64,000 nucleotides of DNA. It comes from Acidobacteriaceae bacterium. GTDB taxonomy: Bacteria; Acidobacteriota; Terriglobia; Terriglobales; Acidobacteriaceae. Positions within the stretch are counted from its first letter, which is position 1. Each line of letters opens with the position of its first letter. The DNA lies in the NCBI GenBank assembly GCA_028283655.1, contig JAPWKE010000003.1, positions 2,604,001 to 2,668,000 on the forward strand, read 5' to 3'. Below, one piece after another: positions 1 through 49,486 of the stretch. The translations under genes and the position numbers were made by a program. The notes under the pieces were generated by a model. That model ran no database searches, had not been told where the DNA came from, and saw nothing but the letters and a program-made list of their open reading frames with translations.

Positions 1-3000
1 CGAGGCCGCAACAGCGTTTGGATCACTCGTCAGGTTCGGCCTCACAGCACCGGAGTACGTACCCGTGTTGTTTGTCGCGTCATACACTTCGAGAGGTGAG
101 CCCGAGTGAATTTCGAAGATGCCGCCCAGTGTCCAGCCGCCGACGACTTCATCCAGCCAACGAGAGTTGACGTTCACGAGCTTGCCTCGACCGAACGGAA
201 GGTTATAGAGCGCGTTCGCGATCAGACGATTCCTGACATCGTTCGCGGAGAGTCCACGCCACGCCGCAGGATGGTAGTAGTCAGTAATTGTTCCACTCGT
301 TTGGCCAACGTTGCTACGAGCATCCACATTGTCGATGTACTTCGACCATGTGTAGTTCGCACCAAATTGCAAGCCAGACTTCGCCCTACGCTGAATCCCG
401 ATGTTGAGGCCGTTATAGCTTGAGGCACCGTAATCCTTTGCGAGGATGCTCACGTTGTTGAACTGCGGAAAGGGACGCAACGTTTGCTTATTGCTCGTCG
501 TCGCAAGGAGCACCATCTTGTCGGGAGCAACCTGGTTGGTGTTGATCGAACTCGTCGCGGAGAGATGGTGACCGAAGGATCCCAGATAGCCCACCTCAAC
601 AAGCAGCGTCGGTGTGATCTGACGCTGCACGTTGAGGTTGCTCTGATAGATGTAGCCGGTGATGCGGTTCCTGTTGAAGTAATCCGGCGCCTGTGTCGGC
701 TGACTGCCGACCGTCACCGCTCCGAAGGACGAGTTGAGCTGCAAATCAGTGGGCACTGACGCCTTGCCTGTGCCATCCGTTGCGTTGTTCTTGAGCAGAA
801 AGGCAGGAGTACCGCTCACGGTATCCGTCGAGGTCAAGGAGATCGATTTGGAGAAGCCCGTGTACGCCACGATCGGCGTCGCCTGATCGTATTCACCGGG
901 GTAAAGGATCGCGCCACCACCACGCACCACGGTGTTGTCGTCTACCTTGTACGAGAAGCCGAGGCGTGGACCAACATTGTTCAGATCCCACTGATGTGCG
1001 TAGCGAGTCAGTCCATTGCGTCCTGAGAACGTGATGACACCAGGCGTTCCTGACACGGGATTCAGCGTTGTTGGATCAAACGAGTTCTGACGATTTTGAT
1101 CCTCCCAACGTGGCGTGTCCACGTCATAGCGAACGCCAAGATTCAGCACGAGACGAGGTGTGATTCTCCAGTCATCCTGAAAGAACGCAGCCCAACCATA
1201 GGCCGTAGTGTTCAATCGCAGCGTGTCATTTAGCGTGCCGCTATTCACGCGCCCCATCAGCAGATTGGCAAGACTGCCCAACGCCGTAGACGAGCTCACA
1301 CCAAGATTTGTGAAGCCGAAGGCGCCGCCTGCTGAAGGACGATACACGTCCGAATTCTTCGAGGTGCGCCACTCCACACCAGCCTTGAACTGATGCTTGC
1401 CGCGCACAAATGTCACGTGATCGGTGTATTCGTCGCTGAGGATCGGCACCTGTAGGCGCTCTTGTTGAGAGTAGCCAAGTGTCGCCAATCCAGAAAGAGT
1501 AACCGTTGGGAAGAAGGAAGCGTCCGTTCCCTTCAATCCCACTTGATCAGCCAGTGCTGTGTTCGCCCCCAGCGAATAAGCCAAGGCCTTGCGCTGCGTG
1601 AACGTGACGCGCAGTTCGTTGATCACCGAAGGGCTGAAGTTATGGATCCAGGTAGCGAGCTCGTTGTAGTAGTAGTTGTCGCTCCGATTGCCATAAGAGT
1701 CCGTTCCAGGCGTCGGAAAGATGGCAGTTGTGTTCGAGGTATCTACCTGCGCGAGAAAGTGTCCATACAGACGATCGTTAGGTCCAATAATGTGGTCGAT
1801 ACGACCGGTGTAGGCATTGACGATCGCGGTCGTCGGATCATTCACGCGGTAGTTGTTCGTGTTCGCAGCCGCACCACTCACGTTTGGGTTCGGAAAGAAC
1901 GCGGCCAACTTCACACCTACGGGATCCAGAACGCTCGATGGCAGCTTGTTCAACGTGCCGTCATCACCCACCGCCTGCAATCCAGTGTAGGGGTTCGTCA
2001 CTACTGTGCTGAACGCCGAGAAATCGCCAGCACGTTCCGCAGCCGTTGGCACGTTCGCCGTCACCGTGGTCGACTTCGTCGAACGACGACCTTCATAGGT
2101 GAAAAAGAAGTGCGTTCGATCACGGATGATCGGACCACTAAAGCTCGCGCCGAAGAGGTTATAACGAAGGCGCGGCTTGGTCGTCGCAAAGTATGGAGTC
2201 GCTTGAATTGCATCGTTGCGAATGTACTCGTACGCCGAACCGTGGAAATGATTGGTTCCGGAGCGAGTCGTCATCTGCAGCACACCACCGCCGCTGCGAC
2301 CGAGCTCGGCTTCATAGTTGCTGAGCGCGAGATTGAACTCCTGCAATGCCTCGATAGGAGGATCGAAGGAAAGCGTCGGAACACCTTGCAACAGATTTTG
2401 CGCGGTTCCACCGTCAATGAGATAGTTGGCGTTGCCGCCGCGACCGCCAGCAATGGAGAACGTTGCGCTACTACCACTGTTGCTACCAACGACGAATCCG
2501 CTCAAGCGTTGCAGTTGCGATGCTCGCCTATCCAACAGCGGCATATCCACGACGGTCTCGTTCTCGATGACCTTGCTAATGGTTGAGCTCTCGGTTTGCA
2601 CGAGCGGAGTCTCAGCAGACACATCAATCGTCTGGTTCACAGCGCCTGCATGCAGAACGATATCCGCCACCGACGCGTTGCCCGTGAGAACAATCACTCC
2701 GCGCGTAATCTTCGTCTCAAATCCATCATGTTCCACCTTCACGTCATAATGGCCGGGAACAAGAAGCGGAAAGACGTAGTGGCCATCCGGCTTTGACTGC
2801 GATGTTTGCACCGCGCCGGTTTCAACCTGCTTGATAGTAACCTTCGCGTTGGCGACAACAGCGTTTTGTTCGTCCGCGATCACCCCTGAGATCTGTGAAC
2901 TCTGAGCATGCGCCAAGCCGCCCACCAAGAGGACCGCAGCGAAGAAGAAGGCCCCCATAGCGGAGCGAAAGAAAGAGCGTGCCCGAAGGCGAGAATGTTG

Positions 3001-3006
3001 CGGCAT
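1..3006 (-). CDS. TonB-dependent receptor, Oar-like, partial (C-terminus outside window)
   Basis: An uninterrupted frame runs from an ATG at 3006 to the left edge (1002 codons, no stop), so the C-terminal part is missing. It starts with a signal peptide (basic MPQHSRLRARS, then a hydrophobic run ending GLAHAQ). A carboxypeptidase-regulatory-like beta domain follows at about residues 35-115 (SGVIADEQNAVVANAKVTI ... DGHYVFPLLVPGHYDVKV). A plug-like region comes next, with EALQEFNLALSNYEAELGRS and GGGVLQMTTRSGTNHFHGS, which is typical of acidobacterial and myxobacterial Oar-type outer-membrane receptors. The rest is barrel-like. Such receptors import large substrates through the outer membrane using TonB energy; the substrate here is unknown. 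It lies downstream of the sulfatase/PSD1/DUF1501 genes on the same strand and behind a putative attenuator at 3022-3164. A sulfated glycan or other sulfur source is an inference from context only. Confidence 0.9.
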   Translation of the reverse strand, partial: MPQHSRLRARSFFRSAMGAFFFAAVLLVGGLAHAQSSQISGVIADEQNAVVANAKVTIKQVETGAVQTSQSKPDGHYVFPLLVPGHYDVKVEHDGFETKITRGVIVLTGNASVADIVLHAGAVNQTIDVSAETPLVQTESSTISKVIENETVVDMPLLDRRASQLQRLSGFVVGSNSGSSATFSIAGGRGGNANYLIDGGTAQNLLQGVPTLSFDPPIEALQEFNLALSNYEAELGRSGGGVLQMTTRSGTNHFHGSAYEYIRNDAIQATPYFATTKPRLRYNLFGASFSGPIIRDRTHFFFTYEGRRSTKSTTVTANVPTAAERAGDFSAFSTVVTNPYTGLQAVGDDGTLNKLPSSVLDPVGVKLAAFFPNPNVSGAAANTNNYRVNDPTTAIVNAYTGRIDHIIGPNDRLYGHFLAQVDTSNTTAIFPTPGTDSYGNRSDNYYYNELATWIHNFSPSVINELRVTFTQRKALAYSLGANTALADQVGLKGTDASFFPTVTLSGLATLGYSQQERLQVPILSDEYTDHVTFVRGKHQFKAGVEWRTSKNSDVYRPSAGGAFGFTNLGVSSSTALGSLANLLMGRVNSGTLNDTLRLNTTAYGWAAFFQDDWRITPRLVLNLGVRYDVDTPRWEDQNRQNSFDPTTLNPVSGTPGVITFSGRNGLTRYAHQWDLNNVGPRLGFSYKVDDNTVVRGGGAILYPGEYDQATPIVAYTGFSKSISLTSTDTVSGTPAFLLKNNATDGTGKASVPTDLQLNSSFGAVTVGSQPTQAPDYFNRNRITGYIYQSNLNVQRQITPTLLVEVGYLGSFGHHLSATSSINTNQVAPDKMVLLATTSNKQTLRPFPQFNNVSILAKDYGASSYNGLNIGIQRRAKSGLQFGANYTWSKYIDNVDARSNVGQTSGTITDYYHPAAWRGLSANDVRNRLIANALYNLPFGRGKLVNVNSRWLDEVVGGWTLGGIFEIHSGSPLEVYDATNNTGTYSGAVRPNLTSDPNAVAAS

Positions 3007-3021
3007 AACAAATGACCTCAA

Positions 3022-3061
3022 ATCAAAAACGAAAAAGCCCACGATTTCACTGATCGTGGGC
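3022..3061 (-). terminator. Intrinsic terminator/attenuator in front of the TonB receptor
   Basis: On the minus strand GCCCACGAT (3061-3053) pairs with ATCGTGGGC (3045-3037), followed by a T-rich tail TTTTTCGTTTTT (3036 downward). Only about 30 nt separate it from the receptor ATG at 3006. That leaves no room for a promoter after it, so it reads as a conditional terminator in the receptor leader rather than a plain end-of-operon signal. The 5' arm core CCACGA could instead pair with TCGTGG at 3111-3106, inside the short upstream ORF, giving a possible anti-terminator. Confidence 0.75.
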
Positions 3062-3083
3062 ATGAAACGGATTGCGCTTGTCA

Positions 3084-3164
3084 TTACAAGCGCAGTATCC
3101 AGACGCCACGAGGCGGATGAGCAACCAGAGCGAATTCCGTGCAACAACAGAGCATGAGTGACAT
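3084..3164 (-). CDS. Cysteine-run leader peptide (26 aa)
   Basis: This short ORF has a good ribosome site (GAAGGA about 9 nt before the ATG at 3164). The 26-residue product begins MSLMLCCCTEF and ends RGVWILRL. Three consecutive Cys codons (TGT TGT TGC) are codons 6-8. It starts about 50 nt after the DUF1501 stop and ends 23 nt before the terminator hairpin. Polycysteine upstream ORFs acting as cysteine-responsive attenuators are known in mycobacteria; applying that model here is inference. A second ATG at codon 4 is possible. I see no promoter between DUF1501 and this ORF, so it may sit inside a longer operon transcript. Confidence 0.6.
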   Translation of the reverse strand: MSLMLCCCTEFALVAHPPRGVWILRL

Positions 3165-3214
3165 CAGAAAATTCCTTCGTGAAGAGAGATGAAGTACCGG
3201 TGTGCGTAAGACCT

Positions 3215-4579
3215 CTACGCAAAGACCTGCTGCTGAACAACGCCCGCGACGTTCGTTAGACGGAAGTCTCGGCCTGCGTACTTGTACGTCAGTCGCTCAT
3301 GGTCGATGCCCATCAGCGCGAGCAGAGTCGCATGAAGATCGTTGATGTGCATACGTCCCTCCACTGCAGCCATGCCGAGATCATCCGTGCCGCCGTAGCT
3401 AAAGCCTTTTTTGACTCCCGCTCCGATCATGGCCATCGCATAACCAGTGATGTTGTGATCGCGACCATCAAGCCCCTGAGACGTTGGCAAACGTCCGAAC
3501 TCAGAACCGAAAAGCACGAGCGTATCTTCCAACAGGCCCCTCTGCTTGAGGTCTGTCAGCAGAGCCGCGATAGGCTGATCAATTCGACGGCTTTGCTCGA
3601 TCAGGCCATTATGAAGATTCGTGTGATGGTCCCAACCCGGTTGGCGAACCTCCACGAAGCGAACGCCTGCTTCACTCAGACGTCGCGCCATCAAGCACTG
3701 CCGCGCAAACGATCCCTCGATCCCTGCCTTCACGCCGTAAGCATCCAGCACGCTCTGCGTCTCCTTCGAGATATCAAGCAACGCAGGCACACTGTCCTGC
3801 ATGCGGAAACCAAGCTCGTAGGACTTGATGAGCCCCTCTACTTCTTCAGGAGCTCCAGGTTTCCGTGCCTCTGACTCATTCAAGGACTGGATCAGATCAA
3901 TCTGCTGGCGCTCCAGTTCACGACTCGTAGCGGCTTCAATGTTTGGCATGAGACCCGAATCGCTGATCGCGGTCCCCTGATAGTACGCAGGCAGGAACGC
4001 ACTGCCGTAGTTGGACGCTCCACCGAATGCGACCGGCGGATTGATCGTGATGTAACCAGGGAGGTTTTGATTTTCCGTACCCAGCCCATAGAGCAACCAC
4101 GACCCCATGCTTGGACGCGTGAGTGATGCGTTCGAACTGCCGGTATGCAACTGCACTACCGCCTGCGGATGCGCGGGCGTGTCTGTGTAGAGGCCACGCA
4201 AAAAGCAGAAGTCATCCGCATGCGTTGCCATATGTGGCAGCAGCTCCGAGAACCACGCTCCAGAGGCACCATACTGCTTGAACTTGAAGCGTGACGGCGT
4301 GATCGTGCCGCCTCCTGGGCCCGACTTGCCGCTCAGCTTCTCCAGTTGTGGCTTGTACTCAAAAGTGTCCACGCTGGACATCGCACCTTCCATGAAAAGG
4401 AAGATGATCTTCTTCGCCTTCGCAGGCAGCGGCGGGCGTTTCGCTGCGAGAGGGTTGAGCGTATTGAACTCCGCTGCAGCCGCAGTCTTAGAAAGCGAGC
4501 CGAGCAAGCCAGCCAATGCCAGATGGCCAAAGCCCGCACCAGCGGATCGCAGAATATCTCTTCGGGTAAAGCGATTCAT
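3215..4579 (-). CDS. DUF1501 family protein, Tat-exported
   Basis: A 454-residue protein with a twin-arginine signal (MNRFTRRDILRSAG, hydrophobic stretch, cleavage near TAAAA). The body matches the DUF1501 family: KKIIFLFMEGAMSSVDTFEYKP at residues 57-78, FLRGLYTDTPAHPQAVVQLHTGS, RFVEVRQPGWDHHTNLH, LVLFGSEFGRLPTSQG-DGRDHN, and HINDLHATLLALMGID near the C-terminus. DUF1501 proteins have a sulfatase/alkaline-phosphatase-like core and in Planctomycetes and Acidobacteria are almost always encoded beside DUF1549/DUF1553 (PSD1) proteins. Here the gene starts 25 bp after the PSD1 stop, so the two are surely co-transcribed. The protein should be periplasmic. Its substrate and reaction are not established for the family. 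It is full length, with an ATG start placing the Tat signal at the very N-terminus. Confidence 0.9.
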   Translation of the reverse strand: MNRFTRRDILRSAGAGFGHLALAGLLGSLSKTAAAAEFNTLNPLAAKRPPLPAKAKKIIFLFMEGAMSSVDTFEYKPQLEKLSGKSGPGGGTITPSRFKFKQYGASGAWFSELLPHMATHADDFCFLRGLYTDTPAHPQAVVQLHTGSSNASLTRPSMGSWLLYGLGTENQNLPGYITINPPVAFGGASNYGSAFLPAYYQGTAISDSGLMPNIEAATSRELERQQIDLIQSLNESEARKPGAPEEVEGLIKSYELGFRMQDSVPALLDISKETQSVLDAYGVKAGIEGSFARQCLMARRLSEAGVRFVEVRQPGWDHHTNLHNGLIEQSRRIDQPIAALLTDLKQRGLLEDTLVLFGSEFGRLPTSQGLDGRDHNITGYAMAMIGAGVKKGFSYGGTDDLGMAAVEGRMHINDLHATLLALMGIDHERLTYKYAGRDFRLTNVAGVVQQQVFA

Positions 4580-4604
4580 TGCATTCTCCTGAAATCAACA
4601 CGAG

Positions 4605-7600
4605 TTAGTGAACAAACTGAAACGCAGCAGAACCGTACAGCGACTGCACGAATGCAGACCAGGCAGCCTCTTGCGCGTTATCTAGGGTCACGGCAGACTG
4701 CGCGGGTGGAGCCTTCGCATCTTCGACCTCATCGTCCTGAGCAAGACCGTCTTCACGAATGATGCGCGCAGGATCGTTCGGCTTGTCTTGCCCCTGAAAA
4801 GCTATGCGGGCCACGCGCTTGTTCGACCGCGCCCAGGTCGCGGAGTACTCACGCAGAAACGCGGTCACACGCTTCCGCTCTGCGGTAGAGGGATCTCGCC
4901 CAAGCACCTTTTCATAGGCGATCCGAACTCCATCGTGTCCGCCATGATGTGCGAGAAGATTCCGCGCCAACTCCAGCGATTGCTCACGCACAAACGGTGA
5001 GTTGAGCATGAACAACGACTGCTTTGACACAGTGGTCACCTCTCGCTTGCCCGCAATCAACGTTTGCGTCACGGGATCGAAAGCGGCCAGCGAACGCGGC
5101 GTCTCATCACGAAGCAACGGCAGATAGATACTGCGATAGTGACTGCCGTCCGCTGCTTTCAGGATCGAGGCAACAGCCGGCCCATCATCCCTGACCTCGA
5201 TCATGCGTAGAGCCATCGTTGGCGAACCATGTACCGCATGCAAATCCAGGTCACCAGCTGAGGCAAGAATACTGTCGCGAATTTCTTCCGCATCCATCCT
5301 GCGTGGAGAATGTCTCCACACATACTGGTTCTCGGGATCTACATTCTGGTTCTTCGCCGGTGCATCGGAACCGAGGCGATAGACATGTGAGAGTACGATC
5401 TCGCGAATCAGCTTCTTCGTCGACCATCCTTGCTCCACAAAATCATTCGCAAGATAGTCAAGCAACGCTGGATCCGAAGGAGTACCTCCCGTCACGCCGA
5501 AGTTGTCCTGCGTGACCACGATTCCCCGCCCGAACAAATGCTGCCATACGCGGTTCACATACACGCGCGTTGTCAGCGGATTGTCCGGACGCGCAATCCA
5601 GTCAGCGAGTTCGAGGCGCCCGCTATGATCTGCAGGAATGGTCGGCGTATTCGGTAACGAGAGCACAGTGAGGAAGCCGCGCGGAACCGTTGGTCCATGG
5701 CGCTCCTCCACGCCACGCACACGCACAGTCGTATCTGCGATCACGCCATCATGCATGCTGTGAATGCCATAGCCGTGTTCGCCCTTGTCCTCCAGCAATT
5801 GAAGGTTTTCACGTGCAGCGATGAAGTGTGTTCGCAGCTCGAGCCGATGTTTTTTCTCTTCATCCGATGGCGGAGGCAGACTCGGATTGAGCTTGAGCGC
5901 AGCCTCACGTTTCGCGTTCATCTCGTCCAGCTGCTTGCGATAGCTTGCAGCCTCCGCCTGCAGCTTCGCCTTCGCCGCTTTGTCCTCAATCGACACCGAG
6001 CTAGCGGCGCTCATGTATCCAAGGTGCTTCGGGTCGTAGTAGTCCAGGCTCGCGCCACCCATACGGCTGCTCAATCCAACATTGTCGTCCGTGCTGGTGA
6101 AGATGCCCGCCAGCGCGTAGTAGTCCTTCGTCGGAATGGGATCGAACTTATGGTCGTGGCAACGCGCGCAGGAAACAGTGATCGCCATCGTGGAGCGTGT
6201 CACCGTGTCGATGAGATCGTCGACGTTGTCCATCTTGTAGCGCGCCTTGAAGCGCTGGTTTACGTCTTTCGGCCCCAGAGCAAGATAGCCGGTCGCGATC
6301 AGCAGGCGATCACGCTCTTCTGGAGTGCTCGCAGGCAGAAGATCGCCTGCTATCTGTTCCCGCAGAAAACGGTTATACGGAACGTCACGATTTACCGCGT
6401 CGATAACGTAATCGCGATAGCGCCACGCGTTCGGATACGGCATGTTGCGCGAGGGCCCCGAAGACTCACCATAACGAGCGATATCAAGCCAATGTCTTCC
6501 CCACCGTTCGCCGAAGCGCGGCGAGGCAAGCAAGCGATCCACCAACTTGGCGTAGGCCTGCGGAGAATGATCGCGCTGGAAAGCACGCACTTCCTCCGGT
6601 GTAGGCGGCAAACCAGTCAGGTCAAAGGTGATTCGGCGCACAAGCGTGCCGGTATCGGCATCGGCAACCGGCGCCAGATGCTTCTCGTCTAACTTCGCAA
6701 GGACGTAGCGATCGATGTTTCCGCTCGCCCAACCAGCATCCTGAAGCACGGGAACGCCCGGATTGGTCAGCGGTTGCCATGACCAATGGCTCTGCTTCAA
6801 CTTCGGATACAGTGCAGCAAGCCGACCAGGCGTCTGCGGCAGCTTCTCGGTTTCATCCGGCCAAGCGGCGCCATCCTTGATCCAACGCTCGAGGATAGCG
6901 ATCTCTTCTGCAGGCAAAGCCTCCTTGCTCTCCTGCGGCATGCGTTGCTTTTCGTTGCTGCTCTTCACCCGCTCAATGAGCAAGCTCTTCTCCGGATGTC
7001 CAGGCACGATCGCAGGTCCGGTGTTACCACCGGCGAAGATGCTGATCCCAACATCAACGCGAAGGCCACCAGCTTCTTTGAAAGCGTCTGAGTGGCAGTT
7101 GTAGCAGCGGTTCACGAGGATGGGTCGCACGTTCTTCTCGAAGTACGCAAGCTGCTCTGCCGTTGCGGCGCGTGGATACGCTACGGCCGTCGCGATGAGC
7201 GGCGTCTTTGACTTCTCCATCACATCCTGCTGCGCCTTCAACTCACTCCAAGGCAGGTCATGCGCCACCCAGGCACGCAGGGCTGCGATCTCCGCCTCTG
7301 GAAGAGCATCGTCTCCCTTGGGCATGCGCTTCTTGTCATCGCTCGTGATGATGCGTTCTATCAACAAGCTCTCGTCGGGCTTGTCGGCGATGGCCGCTGG
7401 TCCCGATCGCCCGCCGCGCAAGATGCTCTCGCGATCGTCTAGCAACAGTCCACCTGCGGCGCGCGTGTCCTTGGAGTGGCAGTCATAGCAACGGCTCTTG
7501 AGAATCGGTTCGACCGTCTTCTCGTACGAAGCTGCGTCCGTCGCGTGCGGAGCCGCAGCGGGCTTCTCCGCAGCATCTACAGTAACCGTGCCAGAGCTGA

Positions 7601-7691
7601 TGACAGAACCTAAAGCTAAGGCTCCAAGAACGATCGACAGCACAAGAAATGAGGATGGAGCAACATGGCTCCAACGCGATGACAATCGCAT
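4605..7691 (-). CDS. Planctomycete-type cytochrome c / DUF1549 / DUF1553 (PSD1) protein
   Basis: Reading from the ATG at 7691 (GGAG 8 nt upstream) gives 1028 aa; an ATG at 7721 would add ten residues but lacks a ribosome site. An N-terminal membrane or signal segment comes first. Two PSCyt1 modules follow, each with a haem-binding CxxCH (CYDCHS at about 68-72, and CYNCHS about 130 residues later) and the family tail AGGLLLDDRES / AGGLRVD. DUF1549 contains WDIARYGES-type sequence (HWLDIARYGESSG) and a third CxxCH (CARCHDHKFDPIPTKDYY). DUF1553 follows with RVYVNRVWQHLFGRGIV, NFGVTG and SPRRMDAEEIRDS. It is a predicted periplasmic multi-haem protein of unknown reaction. It forms an operon with the DUF1501 gene 25 bp downstream. 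A Cys-rich small ORF lies about 100 nt upstream of the start. Confidence 0.9.
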   Translation of the reverse strand: MRLSSRWSHVAPSSFLVLSIVLGALALGSVISSGTVTVDAAEKPAAAPHATDAASYEKTVEPILKSRCYDCHSKDTRAAGGLLLDDRESILRGGRSGPAAIADKPDESLLIERIITSDDKKRMPKGDDALPEAEIAALRAWVAHDLPWSELKAQQDVMEKSKTPLIATAVAYPRAATAEQLAYFEKNVRPILVNRCYNCHSDAFKEAGGLRVDVGISIFAGGNTGPAIVPGHPEKSLLIERVKSSNEKQRMPQESKEALPAEEIAILERWIKDGAAWPDETEKLPQTPGRLAALYPKLKQSHWSWQPLTNPGVPVLQDAGWASGNIDRYVLAKLDEKHLAPVADADTGTLVRRITFDLTGLPPTPEEVRAFQRDHSPQAYAKLVDRLLASPRFGERWGRHWLDIARYGESSGPSRNMPYPNAWRYRDYVIDAVNRDVPYNRFLREQIAGDLLPASTPEERDRLLIATGYLALGPKDVNQRFKARYKMDNVDDLIDTVTRSTMAITVSCARCHDHKFDPIPTKDYYALAGIFTSTDDNVGLSSRMGGASLDYYDPKHLGYMSAASSVSIEDKAAKAKLQAEAASYRKQLDEMNAKREAALKLNPSLPPPSDEEKKHRLELRTHFIAARENLQLLEDKGEHGYGIHSMHDGVIADTTVRVRGVEERHGPTVPRGFLTVLSLPNTPTIPADHSGRLELADWIARPDNPLTTRVYVNRVWQHLFGRGIVVTQDNFGVTGGTPSDPALLDYLANDFVEQGWSTKKLIREIVLSHVYRLGSDAPAKNQNVDPENQYVWRHSPRRMDAEEIRDSILASAGDLDLHAVHGSPTMALRMIEVRDDGPAVASILKAADGSHYRSIYLPLLRDETPRSLAAFDPVTQTLIAGKREVTTVSKQSLFMLNSPFVREQSLELARNLLAHHGGHDGVRIAYEKVLGRDPSTAERKRVTAFLREYSATWARSNKRVARIAFQGQDKPNDPARIIREDGLAQDDEVEDAKAPPAQSAVTLDNAQEAAWSAFVQSLYGSAAFQFVH

Positions 7692-7793
7692 GTACATATC
7701 TCCGCAACCAAACGCACGCATATAGAGCGAAGCGCAGCTTGGCTAGCTAAGAAGGCAAATCAAATAAGAGAAAGAGGGAGATCCGGGAATGGA

Positions 7794-7871
7794 CTAGCAA
7801 CAACCACAACAGGGCGTCGTGGTTTGCGAGAGCGAGCGCTCAAGTACAGAAATGAATTCTGCAGGTTGCAT
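7794..7871 (-). CDS. Small ORF ending Cys-Cys-Gly-Cys-Cys (25 aa)
   Basis: The ORF starts at an ATG (7871) with AAGG about 9 nt upstream. It encodes 25 residues beginning MQPAEFISVLERS and ending TTTPCCGCC, with the stop directly after the last Cys codon. Four of the last five codons are Cys (TGT TGT GGT TGT TGC TAG). It lies between the sulfatase terminator (7936-7979) and the PSD1 gene (start 7691), so it would be the first translated element of the PSD1-DUF1501 transcript. I see no clear terminator hairpin between it and PSD1, so classical attenuation is less obvious than at 3084-3164. It could be a Cys-sensing leader, a metal- or redox-active micropeptide, or chance. Confidence 0.5.
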   Translation of the reverse strand: MQPAEFISVLERSLSQTTTPCCGCC

Positions 7872-7935
7872 TGCAAGACCTTAGCACTACAAGAATCAAT
7901 AGTCAACATGTGGCAATGTAAATTACGCGTTGCTC

Positions 7936-7979
7936 GATAAAGGCAGGTAGCAAAGAGAATAGGCTCTTCGCTACCTACC
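7936..7979 (-). terminator. Terminator of the sulfatase gene
   Basis: On the minus strand, GGTAGGTAGCGAAGAG (7979-7964) pairs with CTCTTTGCTACCTGCC (7957-7942) over 16 bp with two G-T pairs, followed by TTTAT. It starts 7 bp after the sulfatase stop, so the sulfatase is probably transcribed alone and PSD1 needs its own promoter downstream. A TTGACT/TAAGGT pair with 17 bp spacing upstream of the small ORF at 7871 is a weak candidate. Confidence 0.8.
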
Positions 7980-7986
7980 TTCCATC

Positions 7987-9438
7987 CTAGGGATATAAAG
8001 CCGCAGACCGTATTACAGGCTCGCCTTCACCAGCGGCCCTTAGTAACTCTTTGAGTCGCTCGCGCAGTTCATCTGCTTTCTTTCGATATTCCTGCCTACC
8101 TGCGAGGTTGATAAGTTCATGGGGGTCTCCGCGCTGATCATAGAGTTGATACTCCGTGTAACTCTCCGCCGCAGGTGAAGTGCTTGAACCGCTCAGGTCG
8201 GCGACGCAGTATGTCCAATCCGGCGTCCGAATAGCACGAGCCGTCATCGACTCACTGATCTGGATGAACTGCTCTTGTTTCCAATGCTCACGTGCTGCAG
8301 AGTCATTCAGAAGCGCATACGCACTGCGGCCCTTCCACGAGGCCGGCACCGCTACCCCTGCTGCCTCCAGCAACGTAGGCGCAACATCAATCAGTCCAAT
8401 CAGCTCCGGCACTTGCTGTGCTCCACGAAAACCCGGACCATCGATGATGAGCGGCACTCGAATCGAACTGTTGTGCGTGCTGCGCTTGTATTCCTTGTTG
8501 CGAGTAGCGAAGTGGCAGCCATGATCGCTGATAAAGACGAAGATCGTGTTCTCCGCTAAGCCCTCTTCTTCCAACACGCGACGTACTCGCCCCACCGAAG
8601 TATCGATAGCCGAGATGCAGCCGTAGTAGTCGGGAAGTTGCGACTGCCAGATTCCTGGCTGCGCGCGCAGGTCCTCCGGCACGGTGATGTTCTTGAACGT
8701 ATCCGCCACACCATTTGGTGCGACCGGCGTGCCTCGATCATTCTGCTGATGCGGCTCTAGCTGCGAGATGAACAGGAAGAATGGCCTGTCATGTTTCTGA
8801 CGAAGAAATCGCTCCGCACGGTCCGTGAGGAAGTCGACGCGGTACTCATCCTTGTATTCGATAGGTTGATTGTCGCGATCCCATATCGTGCCTTCGTAAG
8901 GGTGCGTGGTGCCCTCAATCGAATTGCTTCCCTCCCATAAATCGTCAAAGCCACCGCGCTCGGCAGCAGGCACAGCGCCCGGCCCACCACCTTGAGCCTT
9001 CCCGGGTGCAAGATGCCACTTACCGATGAGATTTGCCGAGTACCCGGCCTTGCGTAGCTCACCAGCCAACGTAGGAAGCGACTTGTTGAGCGGAAGACCG
9101 TTGTGCCACACTCCGGTTTCCGTCGCATAACGGCTAGTAAACAAAACCGAACGCGCAGGAGCACACACCGGCTGGTTCGTCACCGCTTGAGTAAAGTTCT
9201 TCCCTCTCGCTGCCAACGCATCGAGATTCGGCGTACGCGTAGAGTTGTTGAGTCTATTCGCTCCGACGAAATCCCAGCGGAACTGGTCAGCCAGATACAA
9301 CACTATATTCGGTGCCGGCTTCTTCTTCGTTGTGGCAGCTGCAGCCGTGGTTACTTCGACTTGGCTTGCCCCAACCGTGAGTGCAGCGGCGACCGACTTT
9401 TTGAGAAATGACCTACGGGAGTTCGGTGATTGAGACAT
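7987..9438 (-). CDS. Family S1 sulfatase, Tat-exported
   Basis: A 483-residue protein read from the ATG at 9438, which has GGAGGG 7 nt upstream and starts MSQSPNSRRSFLKK, a twin-arginine signal. An in-frame ATG at 9528 would bury this signal and is rejected. The sulfatase domain shows the N-terminal metal site region NIVLYLADQFRWD (44-56) and the activation motif CAPARSVLFTSRYATETG, with Cys92 in C-x-P-x-R to be converted to formylglycine by a maturation enzyme. Further matches are GKWHLAPG and FISDHGCHFATRNKEYKRSTHNSSIRVPL. It should hydrolyse sulfate esters, probably on a carbohydrate or other organic substrate in the periplasm; the substrate cannot be told. No formylglycine-generating enzyme is in the window. 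The gene is followed by its own terminator and precedes the PSD1/DUF1501/TonB genes, suggesting a sulfur- or sulfated-glycan scavenging locus. Confidence 0.93.
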   Translation of the reverse strand: MSQSPNSRRSFLKKSVAAALTVGASQVEVTTAAAATTKKKPAPNIVLYLADQFRWDFVGANRLNNSTRTPNLDALAARGKNFTQAVTNQPVCAPARSVLFTSRYATETGVWHNGLPLNKSLPTLAGELRKAGYSANLIGKWHLAPGKAQGGGPGAVPAAERGGFDDLWEGSNSIEGTTHPYEGTIWDRDNQPIEYKDEYRVDFLTDRAERFLRQKHDRPFFLFISQLEPHQQNDRGTPVAPNGVADTFKNITVPEDLRAQPGIWQSQLPDYYGCISAIDTSVGRVRRVLEEEGLAENTIFVFISDHGCHFATRNKEYKRSTHNSSIRVPLIIDGPGFRGAQQVPELIGLIDVAPTLLEAAGVAVPASWKGRSAYALLNDSAAREHWKQEQFIQISESMTARAIRTPDWTYCVADLSGSSTSPAAESYTEYQLYDQRGDPHELINLAGRQEYRKKADELRERLKELLRAAGEGEPVIRSAALYP

Positions 9439-9493
9439 CAATATCCCTCCGCCGGCTTCTTGTCCGGCATGCTTCAAATAGTGCTCACCAGCC

Positions 9494-9583
9494 TCAGAAT
9501 GCGGGACACTTCTTGAGGACACATGCAAAGAGTCGGCGCTCTGCAGCCATGGATTCAGCGCAGCATGTGCGAGGAGTGACCAT
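9494..9583 (-). CDS. Possible small ORF with Cys codons upstream of the sulfatase (29 aa)
   Basis: An ATG-started frame at 9583 encodes 29 residues beginning MVTPRTCCAESMAAERR and ending KKCPAF, with Cys at positions 7, 8, 21 and 26. It stops 55 bp before the sulfatase start. There is no convincing ribosome site and no terminator hairpin after it. The main reason to record it is position: like the Cys-rich ORFs at 3084 and 7794 it sits just ahead of a gene of the same locus. Confidence 0.3.
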   Translation of the reverse strand: MVTPRTCCAESMAAERRLFACVLKKCPAF

Positions 9584-10127
9584 CAACGCGATCGACCATT
9601 GGCATACAACACTCGTACGCAACTCGCCAGCAACCAGAGGCTCTGGAACCCAGACGGCTACAACAATGAGTTTTGAAATGAAAAAGGAATAGCAGAGCGC
9701 TTAGAAAAGAATCGCATTAGTAGCGACAACAAGCAGTCTGGTGATAGAAGTCCACGAACTCACGTTACCCACGATCAGTCACAATGTCAAACAGCTGCGG
9801 ATCGCGTCTACACCTCTTCCGCGGACGGAACAATCATGAAATCTATGATGATTGAGGGTTCCCCCTTTAGGCGTACGCCTCAAGAATCCCTAGAGGAATA
9901 CAAGGTGCGGTGAGTAGGCCCTACGCAAATGGTTTCCCTGTTTTTTCCTGTTTACTACGGGCCGCAGATTAGGATCAGTCTTTTAGACCGAATACACGGT
10001 GCGTCTGCTTGCTGTTGAATTCCCCAATTCCTTGTTTAATTCCCTGAAACAGCGAATGTCATTTAGAGACAGGGTTCGCCACAGACTACATCCACCGCCA
10101 GATTGAATGAGGCTTCGGCCTCAGAAT
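9584..10127. other. Non-coding intergenic region
   Basis: I see no gene here. It should carry the sulfatase promoter on the minus strand. Visible structure: a perfect 12-bp palindrome AGGCGTACGCCT at 9869-9880, and near 9940-10050 several related short stretches (TTCCCTG, TTTTCCTG, ATTCCTTG, ATTCCCTG). A small TGAGGCTTCGGCCTCA hairpin sits at about 10108-10123, next to the terminator at 10128-10158. The function of these elements is unknown. Confidence 0.5.
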
Positions 10128-10158
10128 GCGAAAGAGCCCGCTAAGCAGCGGGCTCTTT
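10128..10158 (-). terminator. Terminator after the GT4 gene
   Basis: AAAGAGCCCGCT and AGCGGGCTCTTT (10131-10158) form a 12-bp stem with a 4-nt loop, followed on the minus strand by TTTCGC. It lies 22 bp past the stop of the glycosyltransferase at 10181. It could work in both directions because both flanks carry A/T runs. Confidence 0.8.
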
Positions 10159-10180
10159 GCTCTTCTCTCCACGCTCTCCG

Positions 10181-11293
10181 CTAATCGTCCTTTGCAGCTC
10201 GCACGAGCGCATCGCGAAAGGCGTCCATCATCTGCGGGACGCGGAACAGAGCGGCCTGTGCGGCCCCACGCGCAATGTACTCCTGACGCGTCTCCGGCTC
10301 TTCGAGCAGCTTGCGAACAGCCGACTCGATGCTGCTCGGGGCAGAGGAATCGACAGCAAAGGGATCGACAAAAAGCGCGGCGGAACCGGCAATCTCGCGC
10401 AGAGCTCCCTCCTGCGTCGTAATGACGGGGCAGTTGAAGTGCATGGCCTCGAGGACGGGTAGACCAAAGCCCTCATAGAGCGACGGATAGACCAGTGCGA
10501 AGGCGCGCTGGTACAGCGCCACCAGCGTGCTGTCGTCTGCGACAACTGCGGTGACGCCTCCGCCCAGGCCCCAGCGGCTCAGGTAATCCTCTTCGGTATG
10601 GCTCAACCGGCCGGTACAGACGAGTTGCAGATCGGGGTACTCCTGCAGGATGGGCTGCAGGGCGCGGACGAGCGAGTAGAAGCCTTTCCTACCAGAGCGT
10701 TCGCCGACGAAGAGCAGGAATTTTTCTGGCAGCTTTGAGGTTGTCGGCGTCGCGCGGGCACTCGCCAGCAGGTTTCCCGTGGGAACGACGACGACGCGAC
10801 GAGGATCCACCACAACCTGCTTGAGCAGCGCGTCGCGCGTGTCGTTTGAGATACAGAGCACGAGGCTTGCCCGGCAAGCGGCGTAGAGGAGGCTGGTCAT
10901 GCCAGGGCCTGCGGCGTCAAAGAGCCCATCCGGTGCGGTCACGCACGTCATCAGATCATGCACGACCATCAGAAACGGTGCGTCTGCCCTCTCGTCCAGA
11001 AAGCGGGAGTCAAACTCGGGCGACGTGAACAGGATGACGTCGTACTGGCCTTGTCGCACGGCACGCCGAAACAGGCGCCGAGAAAGATAGTCCATCACGC
11101 GAACCGCAAAGGGAATGCGGTGCAGCCACAACGTGCGGCGGGAAAGCGGCGTATGGAAATCGCATTTGCTGGAGACCAGAGGAACGTTCAGCTCCACTCC
11201 GCGCTCGCGTAAGCCATCGCAAACAGCCGTGTAATAACGAGTCAATCCGCAACGACCAAAGCGAAAGACCGATGGATCAACGAGGACTCTCAA
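10181..11293 (-). CDS. Glycosyltransferase family 4
   Basis: A 370-residue retaining glycosyltransferase with two Rossmann-like halves (GT-B). The N-terminal half begins MRVLVDPSVFRFGRCGLTRYY and contains FLMVVHDLMT and LVLCISNDTRDALL. The C-terminal half has the donor-binding region KFLLFVGERSGRKGF, LVYPSLYEGFGLPVLEAM with the E-x7-E pair (Glu274, Glu282), and PVITTQEGALREIAG. The start is a TTG at 11293 giving a family-typical N-terminus; no upstream ATG and no clear ribosome site are visible. It is divergent from the ABC exporter, with 32 bp between the start codons. It probably adds a sugar to a lipid-linked or exported glycan; donor and acceptor are unknown. Confidence 0.88.
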   Translation of the reverse strand: MRVLVDPSVFRFGRCGLTRYYTAVCDGLRERGVELNVPLVSSKCDFHTPLSRRTLWLHRIPFAVRVMDYLSRRLFRRAVRQGQYDVILFTSPEFDSRFLDERADAPFLMVVHDLMTCVTAPDGLFDAAGPGMTSLLYAACRASLVLCISNDTRDALLKQVVVDPRRVVVVPTGNLLASARATPTTSKLPEKFLLFVGERSGRKGFYSLVRALQPILQEYPDLQLVCTGRLSHTEEDYLSRWGLGGGVTAVVADDSTLVALYQRAFALVYPSLYEGFGLPVLEAMHFNCPVITTQEGALREIAGSAALFVDPFAVDSSAPSSIESAVRKLLEEPETRQEYIARGAAQAALFRVPQMMDAFRDALVRAAKDD

Positions 11294-11325
11294 GGTAGGT
11301 AGAATACAAGAGATATTTACGCTTC

Positions 11326-13056
11326 ATGAGCCATCGGGCGTCCTTTATGCAAACAGAAATCAGTTCCGATGGGATGAACCGCAAGGGAAAAACGCTCCAC
11401 GCGGCAGGTCTTCGATTTGCTCTCAGACTGCTGTCGCCCAGCCAGCAGCGCTTCATGGGATTGATCGTCGGAGAGCGCATCCTTCTCGGCATCTGCGATC
11501 TTCTGCTTGCCGGGGCGATGTATCTGATGTTTCTGCAGCTCCAGGGCGGCCACCCCAAACATCACGCAGCATGGATACCCCAGACCGCGCTCTCCTCTGC
11601 GCTCTGCTCTGTTGTGCTGGTAGTCATACGGCTGCTGCTGGATCTGGGAGCGTCTCACCACGTCGTTCGATTTACGCAGAAGCTCTATGGCGAGTTTTCT
11701 CGGCAACTGGTGCAGGGATACAGCGAGCTTCGCTGGAATGCGTTTGTGCAGCGCAACCGCAGCGAGTTGGTCAAACACGCGACCTCTACCGCGCTCGATG
11801 CAGCGTACTCGTTTCAGATCTACACAGAGTTGATCGCGGGCTCCGTGATTGTTGTGCTGATGGCAACAGCACTGGTGTATCAGAGCGTCACGATTGCGGC
11901 CTGCCTCTCTGTCATCATCCTTCTGCTCTATCTGCTGCATCGTTACATCCTGCGGCGCAGACTGAAGCTGGCAGCGGCCAGCCGAGAGCAGTCGCTGCGC
12001 GTCATGCAACGCGTGCTGACCGAAGTCTTCACCTCCTCCAAGGAGATACGCGCGTACGGCAATCAGTCATTCTTCTACAAGCTTCTGACCAGAGAAACCG
12101 CGATACAGGCAGACAGCAACACGCAGCTTGCGCTGCTGCCTCAGTTCTCTCGCGTGGTTGCGGAGCAAGGCGTGATCCTGGTGTTTCTTGGGATCATCCT
12201 TTCCGCACTGATCTGGGGCGGCGACATTCATCAAATGCTTTCGCTGCTGATCTTTTACTTCGTCGTCTCGCGGCGGATGCTTCCTCTCATCAGCCAACTC
12301 GCTCTCCTCTTCGGGCAAATGGACGGAGCGTACGAGAACCTCAGCATCGTCCATCAAGAACTCAAGGACTCTCGAACAGCAAGAACAACCACAGAGTCGC
12401 CCCGCAGCCCGGAGCCCGGCTATGCGCTGCAACTCAACCATGTAACGTATGCGTATGACGATGGCAGCCGCGTCCTGGAGGACATCTCCTTCGACCTGCA
12501 CGCAGGAACTACCATGCTTCTTCGCGGCGTTTCCGGCAGCGGAAAGAGCTCGCTCTTGAACCTGATCGCTGGAGTCGCGGAGCCCACAAGCGGAGAAGTT
12601 CTGATCGATCGCGCGACGGCAGCGTACGTGCCACAGGAGATCGCGATGCTGGATGAGTCCGTTCGCCATAACCTGCTCTTCGGGCTGGCTCCCTTGCCTG
12701 ACGAGGTTCTGATGCAGGCGCTCGCCATCGCAAATCTGGATCAGTTTGTCGCAGCTCTGCCGCAGGGGCTCGACACGAGAGTCGGCGATAACGGTGTGCT
12801 CTTCTCTGGCGGCCAGCGGCAACGCCTCGGCATCGCTCGTGCCACGTTGCGTGGAAAAAAACTGCTGCTGCTGGATGAAGCGACATCCGCACTCGATGCA
12901 GAGAACGAGCGCCAGATTTTGGAACGCATTATCCAGTGCGACACGGCGGTGCTGATTGTGACGCACCGGTCCGATGACATAGGCATCGCCGACCGCACCC
13001 TGCAACTCGAGAACGGGAAGCTGGTGGAGCAAGCGTCAGAGCCTCCGTCGCAGTAA
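11326..13056 (+). CDS. ABC exporter, fused membrane and ATPase domains
   Basis: A 576-residue half-transporter. About six membrane segments occupy residues 45-330 (for example LLGICDLLLAGAMYLMFL and GVILVFLGIILSALIWGG). The nucleotide-binding domain at about 365-570 has Walker A GVSGSGKSS (Lys407), Q-loop AAYVPQEIAMLD, signature FSGGQRQRLG (about 493-500), Walker B KLLLLDEATSALD and switch His in IVTHRSD. It is a type I exporter that would act as a homodimer or with another half-transporter; no partner is in the window. Its place among glycosyltransferases suggests flipping of a lipid-linked glycan, like PglK or MsbA-type exporters, which is inference. In-frame ATGs at codons 8 and 17 are alternative starts; no strong ribosome site decides. 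It ends 8 bp from the convergent GT gene. Confidence 0.9.
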   Translation: MSHRASFMQTEISSDGMNRKGKTLHAAGLRFALRLLSPSQQRFMGLIVGERILLGICDLLLAGAMYLMFLQLQGGHPKHHAAWIPQTALSSALCSVVLVVIRLLLDLGASHHVVRFTQKLYGEFSRQLVQGYSELRWNAFVQRNRSELVKHATSTALDAAYSFQIYTELIAGSVIVVLMATALVYQSVTIAACLSVIILLLYLLHRYILRRRLKLAAASREQSLRVMQRVLTEVFTSSKEIRAYGNQSFFYKLLTRETAIQADSNTQLALLPQFSRVVAEQGVILVFLGIILSALIWGGDIHQMLSLLIFYFVVSRRMLPLISQLALLFGQMDGAYENLSIVHQELKDSRTARTTTESPRSPEPGYALQLNHVTYAYDDGSRVLEDISFDLHAGTTMLLRGVSGSGKSSLLNLIAGVAEPTSGEVLIDRATAAYVPQEIAMLDESVRHNLLFGLAPLPDEVLMQALAIANLDQFVAALPQGLDTRVGDNGVLFSGGQRQRLGIARATLRGKKLLLLDEATSALDAENERQILERIIQCDTAVLIVTHRSDDIGIADRTLQLENGKLVEQASEPPSQ

Positions 13057-43933: not shown

Positions 43934-44052
<119 letters not shown>

Positions 44053-44217
44053 ACTTAGAAAGAGCAGCGGAAACCCGCGCGGTCTTTCACAACTGAATAG
44101 ATTGAGCAGACATTTACCTAATTTTTTGCGTATTAGCTATATCTCTATAACTACAAAGCTTGTCATTGTTGAATGTCTCAGAGCAGCAGCGTTATGCTGC
44201 GCAGAGTAAATTCTATG
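44053..44217 (-). other. 23S-5S spacer with RNase III processing stem
   Basis: No gene. ACAACTGAATAGATTG at 44089-44104 is the exact complement of 47370-47385 on the other side of the 23S gene. Closer in, 44204-44224 complements 47152-47172 with one mismatch. These form the long stalk from which pre-23S rRNA is cut. Confidence 0.8.
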
Positions 44218-47160
<2,943 letters not shown>

Positions 47161-47507
47161 ATAGAATTTACTCACACACAGCCTTTCGGCCGCTGCAAGC
47201 AAACTATGTTTATAATTAGTCCGCCTTTGTTAGTCACCCCTTCGGAGGATTAGCCCGAAGGAACTAACGAAAATTATCTAAAGACACTCAACTATGATTG
47301 AATCAATCAGTTGCTAGCGCTGAACCTACCAACGCATACTGATTGCTCAGCCTTGTAGTTATATTTACCCAATCTATTCAGTTGTCAAAAATCGTCGGGT
47401 ATCGCAGATGCAATACCTACGCGCCCTGAGGCGCGCCTGAGCCAAGCTCAAGAACCAACATCCGAAGATGCTCGATCTTGTTCTTGTCACAAAACCTTTA
47501 GAGAGAA
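47161..47507 (-). other. Spacer between tRNA-Ala and 23S rRNA
   Basis: No gene. It holds one arm of the 23S processing stem (47370-47385) and beside it GATTTTTGACA, which resembles a boxA antitermination site. A hairpin-forming stretch rich in GTTAGT / ACTAAC lies at about 47227-47267. Confidence 0.6.
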
Positions 47508-47583
47508 TGGTGGAGCTGACCGGGATCGAACCGATGACATCCTGCTTGCAAAGCAGGCGCTCTCCCAACTGAGCTACAGCCCC
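47508..47583 (-). tRNA. tRNA-Ala(TGC)
   Basis: 76 nt on the minus strand, GGGGCTGTAGCTCAGTTGGG at the 5' end, anticodon stem-loop CCTGC TTTGCAA GCAGG giving TGC, T-arm GGTTCGATCC, encoded CCA end. Its place in the 16S-23S spacer is standard. Confidence 0.97.
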
Positions 47584-47618
47584 ATTCCTGAATCAGTATA
47601 CCTGATTCGTACGAGATA

Positions 47619-47695
47619 TGGTGGGCCTGGATAGATTCGAACTATCGACCTCACCCTTATCAGGGGTGCGCTCTAGCCAACTGAGCTACAGGCCC
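47619..47695 (-). tRNA. tRNA-Ile(GAT)
   Basis: 77 nt on the minus strand, GGGCCTGTAGCTCAGTTGGC at the 5' end, anticodon loop CTGATAA giving GAT, T-arm AGTTCGAATCT, encoded CCA. It is separated from tRNA-Ala by 35 nt in the 16S-23S spacer. Confidence 0.97.
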
Positions 47696-47980
47696 GGCTC
47701 GCTAAAAGCTTTCGCCTTAGCAGCTTGCTCTGCAGCCAGGGTTCGAAAACCACTGGCGCTTGAGCTCTCTCGAAGGTTTTCGAGGACACAGTTGAACGTG
47801 CGAACAAGCTACGCTTATTCTGACCATCGGTTTTGATGATACGTAGACTAAAAGAAGGTTGAGTTCAGACTCTGTATCAGATCCGAAGATCCTCAACAGG
47901 TGCCTGGCCTCGTTATCGACTCAGCTTTCGCTGCCTGCAATCGCAGGACGTCGAATCACTTACCAGGATGGTCTCTTTTA
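47696..47980 (-). other. Spacer between 16S rRNA and tRNA-Ile
   Basis: No gene seen in these 285 bp. Processing sequences for the 16S 3' end are expected. GGTTGAGT near 47855 can pair with ACTCAACC near 49580 on the other side of 16S, a possible part of the 16S stalk. Confidence 0.5.

Positions 47981-49486
<1,506 letters not shown>

Follow-up and report, generated by a model that had tools for sequence, protein, structure and literature searches.

Described attenuators and cysteine-codon leaders

In attenuators of the trp/his/ilv type, a classical group to which the ilvB1 leader of Mycobacterium tuberculosis belongs (available text of PMC13236596), regulatory codons in a leader are combined with a terminator and a mutually exclusive anti-terminator that is masked by a ribosome at the stop codon; such systems control amino-acid biosynthesis. 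For cysteine, the element uORFC-8-2 before cysS in Rhodobacterales has been proposed to act by ribosome-mediated attenuation, and displays a short uORF containing Cys codons in tandem, together with two stems and a 3' intrinsic terminator (accessible sections of PMC8632094). Mycobacteria possess leaderless polycysteine sORFs with Cys-codon runs upstream of sulfur genes, which act on translation (Canestrari 2020, as cited in excerpts of PMC9031893, PMC9094748 and PMC13236596). Cys-codon leaders have also been predicted in actinobacteria, and no terminator hairpins were found for them (accessible part of PMC1262725). For the Acidobacteriota, the available portion of PMC2965389 gives almost no predicted attenuator with an assigned function. 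The literature covered, which takes in a minority of the subscription papers, yielded no recognised case from acidobacteria or Granulicella and no attenuator of a sulfatase or receptor gene. Thus, attenuation by Cys codons is a known kind of regulation, and in the literature searched the phylum and the receptor target appear to be new, as no description of either was recognised.

The locus considered here lies on the minus strand of a 64,000-nucleotide stretch (the window) of an Acidobacteriaceae genome (GCA_028283655.1, contig JAPWKE010000003.1, positions 2,604,001 to 2,668,000). It shares with the trp/his/ilv attenuators the regulatory codons and the terminator, and would share the mutually exclusive anti-terminator that a ribosome at the stop codon masks, but its target is probably nutrient uptake rather than biosynthesis, and the attenuator would lie between the genes of an operon. 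It likewise resembles uORFC-8-2 as far as that element is described in the accessible text; however, the latter controls a cysteinyl-tRNA synthetase in alphaproteobacteria, whereas the present leader precedes a receptor gene within a sulfatase cluster of an acidobacterium, is intra-operonic and differs in sequence. As uORFC-8-2 is defined by its position upstream of cysS, the receptor gene downstream places the window leader outside that class. Unlike the mycobacterial sORFs, as described in the excerpts, it has a Shine-Dalgarno (SD) sequence and an intrinsic terminator, and it is not leaderless, there being no TANNNT box at 4-10 nt. A search with 4227 Rfam families recovered no covariance-model match to the leader at the gathering score, and two unrelated weak ones with E up to 10.

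Architecture of the leader and its gene neighborhood

The leader lies between the stop codon of a DUF1501 gene (3215) and the ATG of the receptor (3006), and comprises the following features:

3177-3173 (-), leader ORF Shine-Dalgarno AAGGA, 8 nt 5' of the ATG
ATG 3164, TAA 3086-3084 (-), 26-codon leader ORF MSLMLCCCTEFALVAHPPRGVWILRL, from sequence
3149-3141 (-), TGT TGT TGC, the three consecutive Cys codons (6-8) at which stalling is proposed, from sequence
3111-3106 (-), TCGTGG within the leader ORF, proposed anti-terminator strand, from sequence and pairing tests
3100-3069 (-), hairpin spanning the stop codon, GGAT..TGCGCTTG / CAAGCGCA..ATCC, from computed folds
3061-3037 (-), intrinsic terminator GCCCACGAT-CAGTGAA-ATCGTGGGC, from terminator scan and sequence
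3059-3054 (-), CCACGA in the terminator 5' arm, from sequence
3036-3025 (-), T tract TTTTTCGTTTTT, from sequence
3019-3016 (-), receptor Shine-Dalgarno GAGG, from sequence

The preliminary description of positions 3164-3037 proved correct almost to the single base. The letters of the SD-led ORF and its Cys codons match, TCGTGG and CCACGA lie where it placed them, and the terminator, put at about 30 nt before the receptor ATG, ends 30 nt before it. The gap between leader stop codon and terminator is short as claimed, but measures 22 nt and not 23. The hairpin over the stop codon is an addition to that description.

The flanking genes are:

1..3006 (-), outer-membrane receptor with CarboxypepD_reg and OMP_b-brl_4 domains (Pfam), continuing past the low edge of the window
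3215..4579 (-), DUF1501 gene, presumably in one operon with the receptor and upstream of it
4605..7721 (-), PSCyt1/DUF1549/DUF1553 gene
7987..9528 (-), cluster sulfatase

Besides a PSCyt/DUF1549/DUF1553 protein, the cluster encodes three sulfatases and two receptors. A further poly-Cys sORF, MVFLCQNCCSCCCTPSL (L031:7467-7520, minus strand), is found about 480-530 nt past the low edge of the window, where it precedes the cluster's next sulfatase and has no obvious terminator. Elsewhere, the window contains an rRNA operon of the ordinary type (43934-49485, minus strand), in which two tRNAs separate 16S from 23S.

A scan of the minus strand for one promoter type, the sigma-70-like, recovered sites at 3635-3608 and 1121-1093 (2 against 4.7 in shuffles) and none between the terminator and the receptor ATG, the nearest upstream site being inside DUF1501. 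The T tract and the receptor SD both fall in the 30 nt between terminator and ATG, and so short a space leaves little room for a separate receptor promoter.

When the locus is taken by itself, the terminator ranks second by stem length among the 19 terminator-like sites of positions 1-12000, shuffles of which give 11.0 (sd 4.2). Within the window, 75 ATG ORFs of 10-45 codons are preceded by an SD-like site, and the leader ORF alone among them has Cys-Cys-Cys. The 211-nt leader region folds with z = -3.05, a value as low being seen in 1 of 200 shuffles. Pairing between the terminator 5' arm and the ORF has a probability of 0.77, against 0.47 for shuffles, 10 of 100 of which reach 0.77; the complement between ORF and terminator gives p = 0.11, and p = 0.19 in the energy test. 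The window locus alone is therefore suggestive and not proof of a switch; the weight of the case comes from its relatives (see below). Alternatively, DUF1501 could be followed by an ordinary operon-end terminator, the Cys-rich sORF being a chance occurrence and the receptor being transcribed from its own or an unrecognised promoter, a reading favored by the complement value of the window and by the many receptors of the same genome lacking such a leader. The closeness of terminator and ATG, the result of the promoter scan and the recurrence of Cys codons in the same slot of relatives and before cysD (see below) render it very improbable.

Leaders in the equivalent slot of related genomes

The closest named relatives of the window genome are Granulicella rosea and G. 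mallensis, with DUF1501 proteins 86% identical to that of the window. The leaders after DUF1501 in relatives are:

G009: MNITHPNYCCSAMYRSGTRRTAIYISS
G002: MTNHAHRMNCCPSLYRLCKRQAATYHLT
G022/G. mallensis: MTNHAHRMDCCPSLYRLCKRQTATYHLT
G024: MNALSCYRAGCWNESETASSWKDRQGPSEGP
G. rosea: MICLIQAASHLHCCRPPVDHRAIFTPIQIKPIG, with its ATG overlapping the DUF1501 stop

A Cys-codon sORF is present in this slot in all six Granulicella-type genomes examined, the window genome included; tandem Cys codons and a terminator are each present in five of the six. The comparison of upstream regions proposed in the preliminary description is favorable for the most part, in that each of the five relatives has the sORF and four have a terminator (that of G009 being weaker, at -12.2 kcal/mol). 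It is unfavorable in that the leader of G024 has two separated Cys codons, so that the Cys run is not strictly kept, no terminator is seen in the G. rosea slot, and most other DUF1501 loci have no leader, with only G. rosea and G. mallensis showing one among the 19 loci inspected of 80. Two further sORFs with CC near DUF1501 (L111, L132) were rejected as not leader-like in appearance. A receptor gene follows the slot leader in G024 as in the window genome; in the other four its place is taken by a short exported-looking protein (L098:11554-12054, plus strand, and equivalents), perhaps rhodanese-like, although for the G. mallensis copy neither Pfam nor NCBIfam gives a match at 1e-5.

The window sORF, with its good SD and adjacent cysteines, might instead encode a small functional protein whose cysteines serve, for example, in metal or redox binding. 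However, the peptide has no NCBIfam match up to E = 1, and the slot peptides, save those of the near-identical G002 and G022, are dissimilar apart from Cys. Searches for homologues recovered only the peptide itself in its own genome, and across 61 genomes the remaining, chance-like matches have E of 0.08 or worse; such a protein is thus the least probable of the explanations entertained, and a highly improbable one.

Related leaders upstream of other receptors

Leaders of the same plan occur upstream of nearby receptors in relatives, where they are promoter-proximal; examples are:

G. mallensis, G002: MQYLTKISLRCCPNFLQSADVSGFVESVIQPI
G009: MRHLTNIYLRCCPNFLQSADMSGIVESVILPV and MSLFTTIARRCCPYGLQSADVSGVVECVILPI
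G. rosea: MVYSIQSDPRCCCSGLPFADTSNPVERTILPI

In these (G. mallensis/G022, G002, two in G009 and G. rosea), the Cys codons are followed by (T)CGTGG, which lies some 20 nt ahead of the stop codon, then the stop codon itself, a hairpin and a CCCACGA terminator, of the form GCCCACGAGA/TCTCGTGGGC and then a T run. They have a TANNNT box 7 nt before the ATG and are leaderless in appearance; such a box lies 6-8 nt before the start in 18 of 28 listed acidobacterial leaders, a count made without a shuffle control. In Granulicella aggregans (L102, about 6337-5850, minus strand), a single receptor is preceded by two successive Cys sORFs, each with a terminator, which may form a double attenuator.

In the window genome, 30 receptor loci were listed for 50 matches, 29 of them besides that of the window. 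An upstream sORF with CC or CxC is found at 8 of the 29, and none of these regions reaches 4 Cys in 18 codons. At another receptor, L043, the sORF MFPVACCIFWRMCS lies near the gene.

The pattern TGTTGY..CGTGG..CCCACGA matches in 62 of 249 genomes, most of these matches being due to chance, as a similar number of genomes (~55) match the reversed control; places that look real by context are found in six genomes (G000, G002, G009, G022, G109 and G115). A covariance model, R1, with a cutoff of E = 0.05, has matches in 5 of 250 genomes; it adds G151 and a third G009 receptor and misses the window's own leader; an extra G002 place from this search was discarded, as it resembles an unrelated terminator. 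A plain DNA query matches in 3 of 28 genus genomes. The sulfatase search of the window's own genome gave 8 matches.

Cysteine-rich leaders upstream of cysD and other sulfur genes

Cys sORFs were also encountered before PF01507 genes of the genus, examples being MVMHRTPACLTCCSCCCQACSCGCACCR, MANCRICACVLNCNCCCCLAYSSGCICR, MKGVYCCCQCFSCCCC and MEVMCIAGCCCPRPFGCC; the PF01507 copy of the window genome is CysD by NCBIfam. Among 24 first-gene loci taken from the 30 listed for the genus, 10 regions have at least 5 Cys in 18 codons, against 0.10 expected. The same level is reached in 0 of 24 for each of W, H, M, Y, F, Q and N, and for Cys in 0 of the 29 other receptor regions of the window genome. The Cys-rich leaders before cysD thus link the Cys codons to sulfur. 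The remaining 14 regions fall below this level, and in many of them the sORF has no more than one or two Cys, as in L225 (MKDTSFRVARCSRHIEVC); the window genome's own cysD leader, MRRFEGITARCPRLVQAGC, is among the 14. In a phylum-wide scan of 1500 nt per locus, made without a shuffle control, the level of 5 Cys in 18 codons is attained at 7 of 26 loci (30 listed), which come from the same family and from five others. The PF01507 gene of another acidobacterial family (L298) has a leader with seven consecutive Cys codons, MVSPATCCCCCCCRPTRPTGGSGPGGSDE.

Upstream of cysD at L225, L227, L231 and L233 there is a conserved Cys-poor sORF (of the MKDTSFRVARCS... type), and downstream of it CCTTTGCGG can pair with CCGCAAAGG beside the SD of the gene, which by eye looks like translational control. 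An unexpected target is the sulfatase maturase, for which clear CCC leaders were found at 2 of 30 loci, L221 in G109 (MRFAHTFRESCCCPGASRHRNLFRGTPMATHT) and L224 in G151 (MTPFYSFRACCCRSVSC), with L273 a possible third.

Many acidobacterial cysD leaders look leaderless. Many also have no visible terminator and, taken with the G. rosea slot and the sulfatase leader of the window's own genome, where no terminator was seen either, and with the mycobacterial Cys leaders that act on translation (excerpts of PMC9031893), this would suit a Cys-responsive leader whose effect is on translation, on Rho access or on the stability of the mRNA, and not via an intrinsic terminator. In the window, however, a terminator does stand between leader and receptor, and its arms exclude the receptor SD, so that such a mode of action is unlikely here.

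Pairing between leader ORF and terminator

In the preliminary description TCGTGG and CCACGA were said to be able to pair, such that terminator and anti-terminator would exclude each other. Across 16 terminator-bearing leaders (a set of 18 minus a near-duplicate and G151, which has a poor terminator), 13 show a perfect complement of at least 6 nt between the ORF past the stall point and the terminator 5' arm, against 1.30 in dinucleotide shuffles; the corresponding Fisher p of 2.6e-6 is too good, because the leaders are related and hence non-independent and the arms were named by hand. The automated energy test gives modest values only, p = 0.026 with 18 leaders and p = 0.024 with 14. In folds representing the RNA before the 3' arm is made, pairing of the 5' arm with the ORF has a mean of 0.672 versus 0.411 for shuffled ORFs, the top of 100 shuffle sets being 0.521, with G009c falling below its shuffles. 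TCGTGG is in reading frame 2 in the window and G109, 0 in G024 and 1 in G. mallensis and G009, and in the cysD leaders the position of TCGTGG:CCACGA is taken by another pair, GGGTGC:GCACCC; it is therefore the RNA pairing, and not the peptide, that is kept.

The enriched complement and the pairing above shuffles speak for the claimed exclusion, but in most of the equilibrium folds the terminator wins. With the 3' arm present and the ribosome stalled, the window terminator retains a probability of 0.98, and among 16 leaders a single one, the upstream leader of G. aggregans (0.00), switches clearly, with partial falls in G. rosea (0.65) and G015 (0.56). The zero pairing computed with the ribosome at the stop follows from omitting the ORF and carries no evidential weight. 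Covariation is also weak: in five aligned receptor leaders the terminator and anti-terminator are each 97% paired, a single pair is changed on both sides, and shuffles do as well on most measures. Since in most leaders the terminator is favored at equilibrium even when the ribosome is stalled, the switch, if real, would be a kinetic one, decided during RNA synthesis. Attenuators are generally held to decide during transcription.

A potential mechanism

Judging from these sequence features, we consider it probable that the window leader is an intra-operonic transcription attenuator, ribosome-mediated and responsive to cysteine. The cysteine attenuation logic proposed earlier holds up as a design, with support from the anatomy of the locus, the shared plan of the relatives' leaders, the enrichment of Cys-rich leaders before cysD and the enriched complement between ORF and terminator. 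For translation of the leader, its co-transcription with DUF1501 and stalling of the ribosome, we infer the following course. A polymerase arriving from the DUF1549-DUF1501 genes would make the leader RNA, with translation by a ribosome proceeding at the same time. With ample charged tRNA-Cys, the ribosome would reach the stop codon and cover the hairpin there, allowing the terminator to form and leaving the receptor untranscribed. When Cys-tRNA is short, the ribosome would stall at codons 6-8, and the RNA ahead of it could form the stop-codon hairpin and the TCGTGG:CCACGA pairing; the latter would tie up the terminator 5' arm before the 3' arm is made, permitting read-through into the receptor. 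The kinetic nature of this switch, cysteine as its signal and a role of the receptor in sulfur scavenging are likewise inferred: the regulatory codon matches the pathway for the cysD leaders, and for the receptor only via the sulfatase neighborhood.

Possible implications for acidobacterial sulfur acquisition

More broadly, there is an even chance, in our estimate, that the Acidobacteriota possess a sulfur-starvation regulon of fast-evolving Cys-codon leaders at cysD, sulfatases, the sulfatase maturase and receptors, some of them intra-operonic. If so, each target would have its own ribosome-read switch, and the intra-operon placement would confine the shut-off at ample cysteine to the receptor. 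An attenuator such as that proposed for the window would furnish a signal, cysteine shortage, for the sulfatase/DUF1501/receptor clusters of soil acidobacteria, and suggest that their receptors serve sulfur supply alongside, or instead of, carbon. Ribosome-sensed control by cysteine would thereby be extended to uptake across the outer membrane, and a Cys-run leader with a terminator might allow sulfur-scavenging operons to be recognised from metagenomic sequence.
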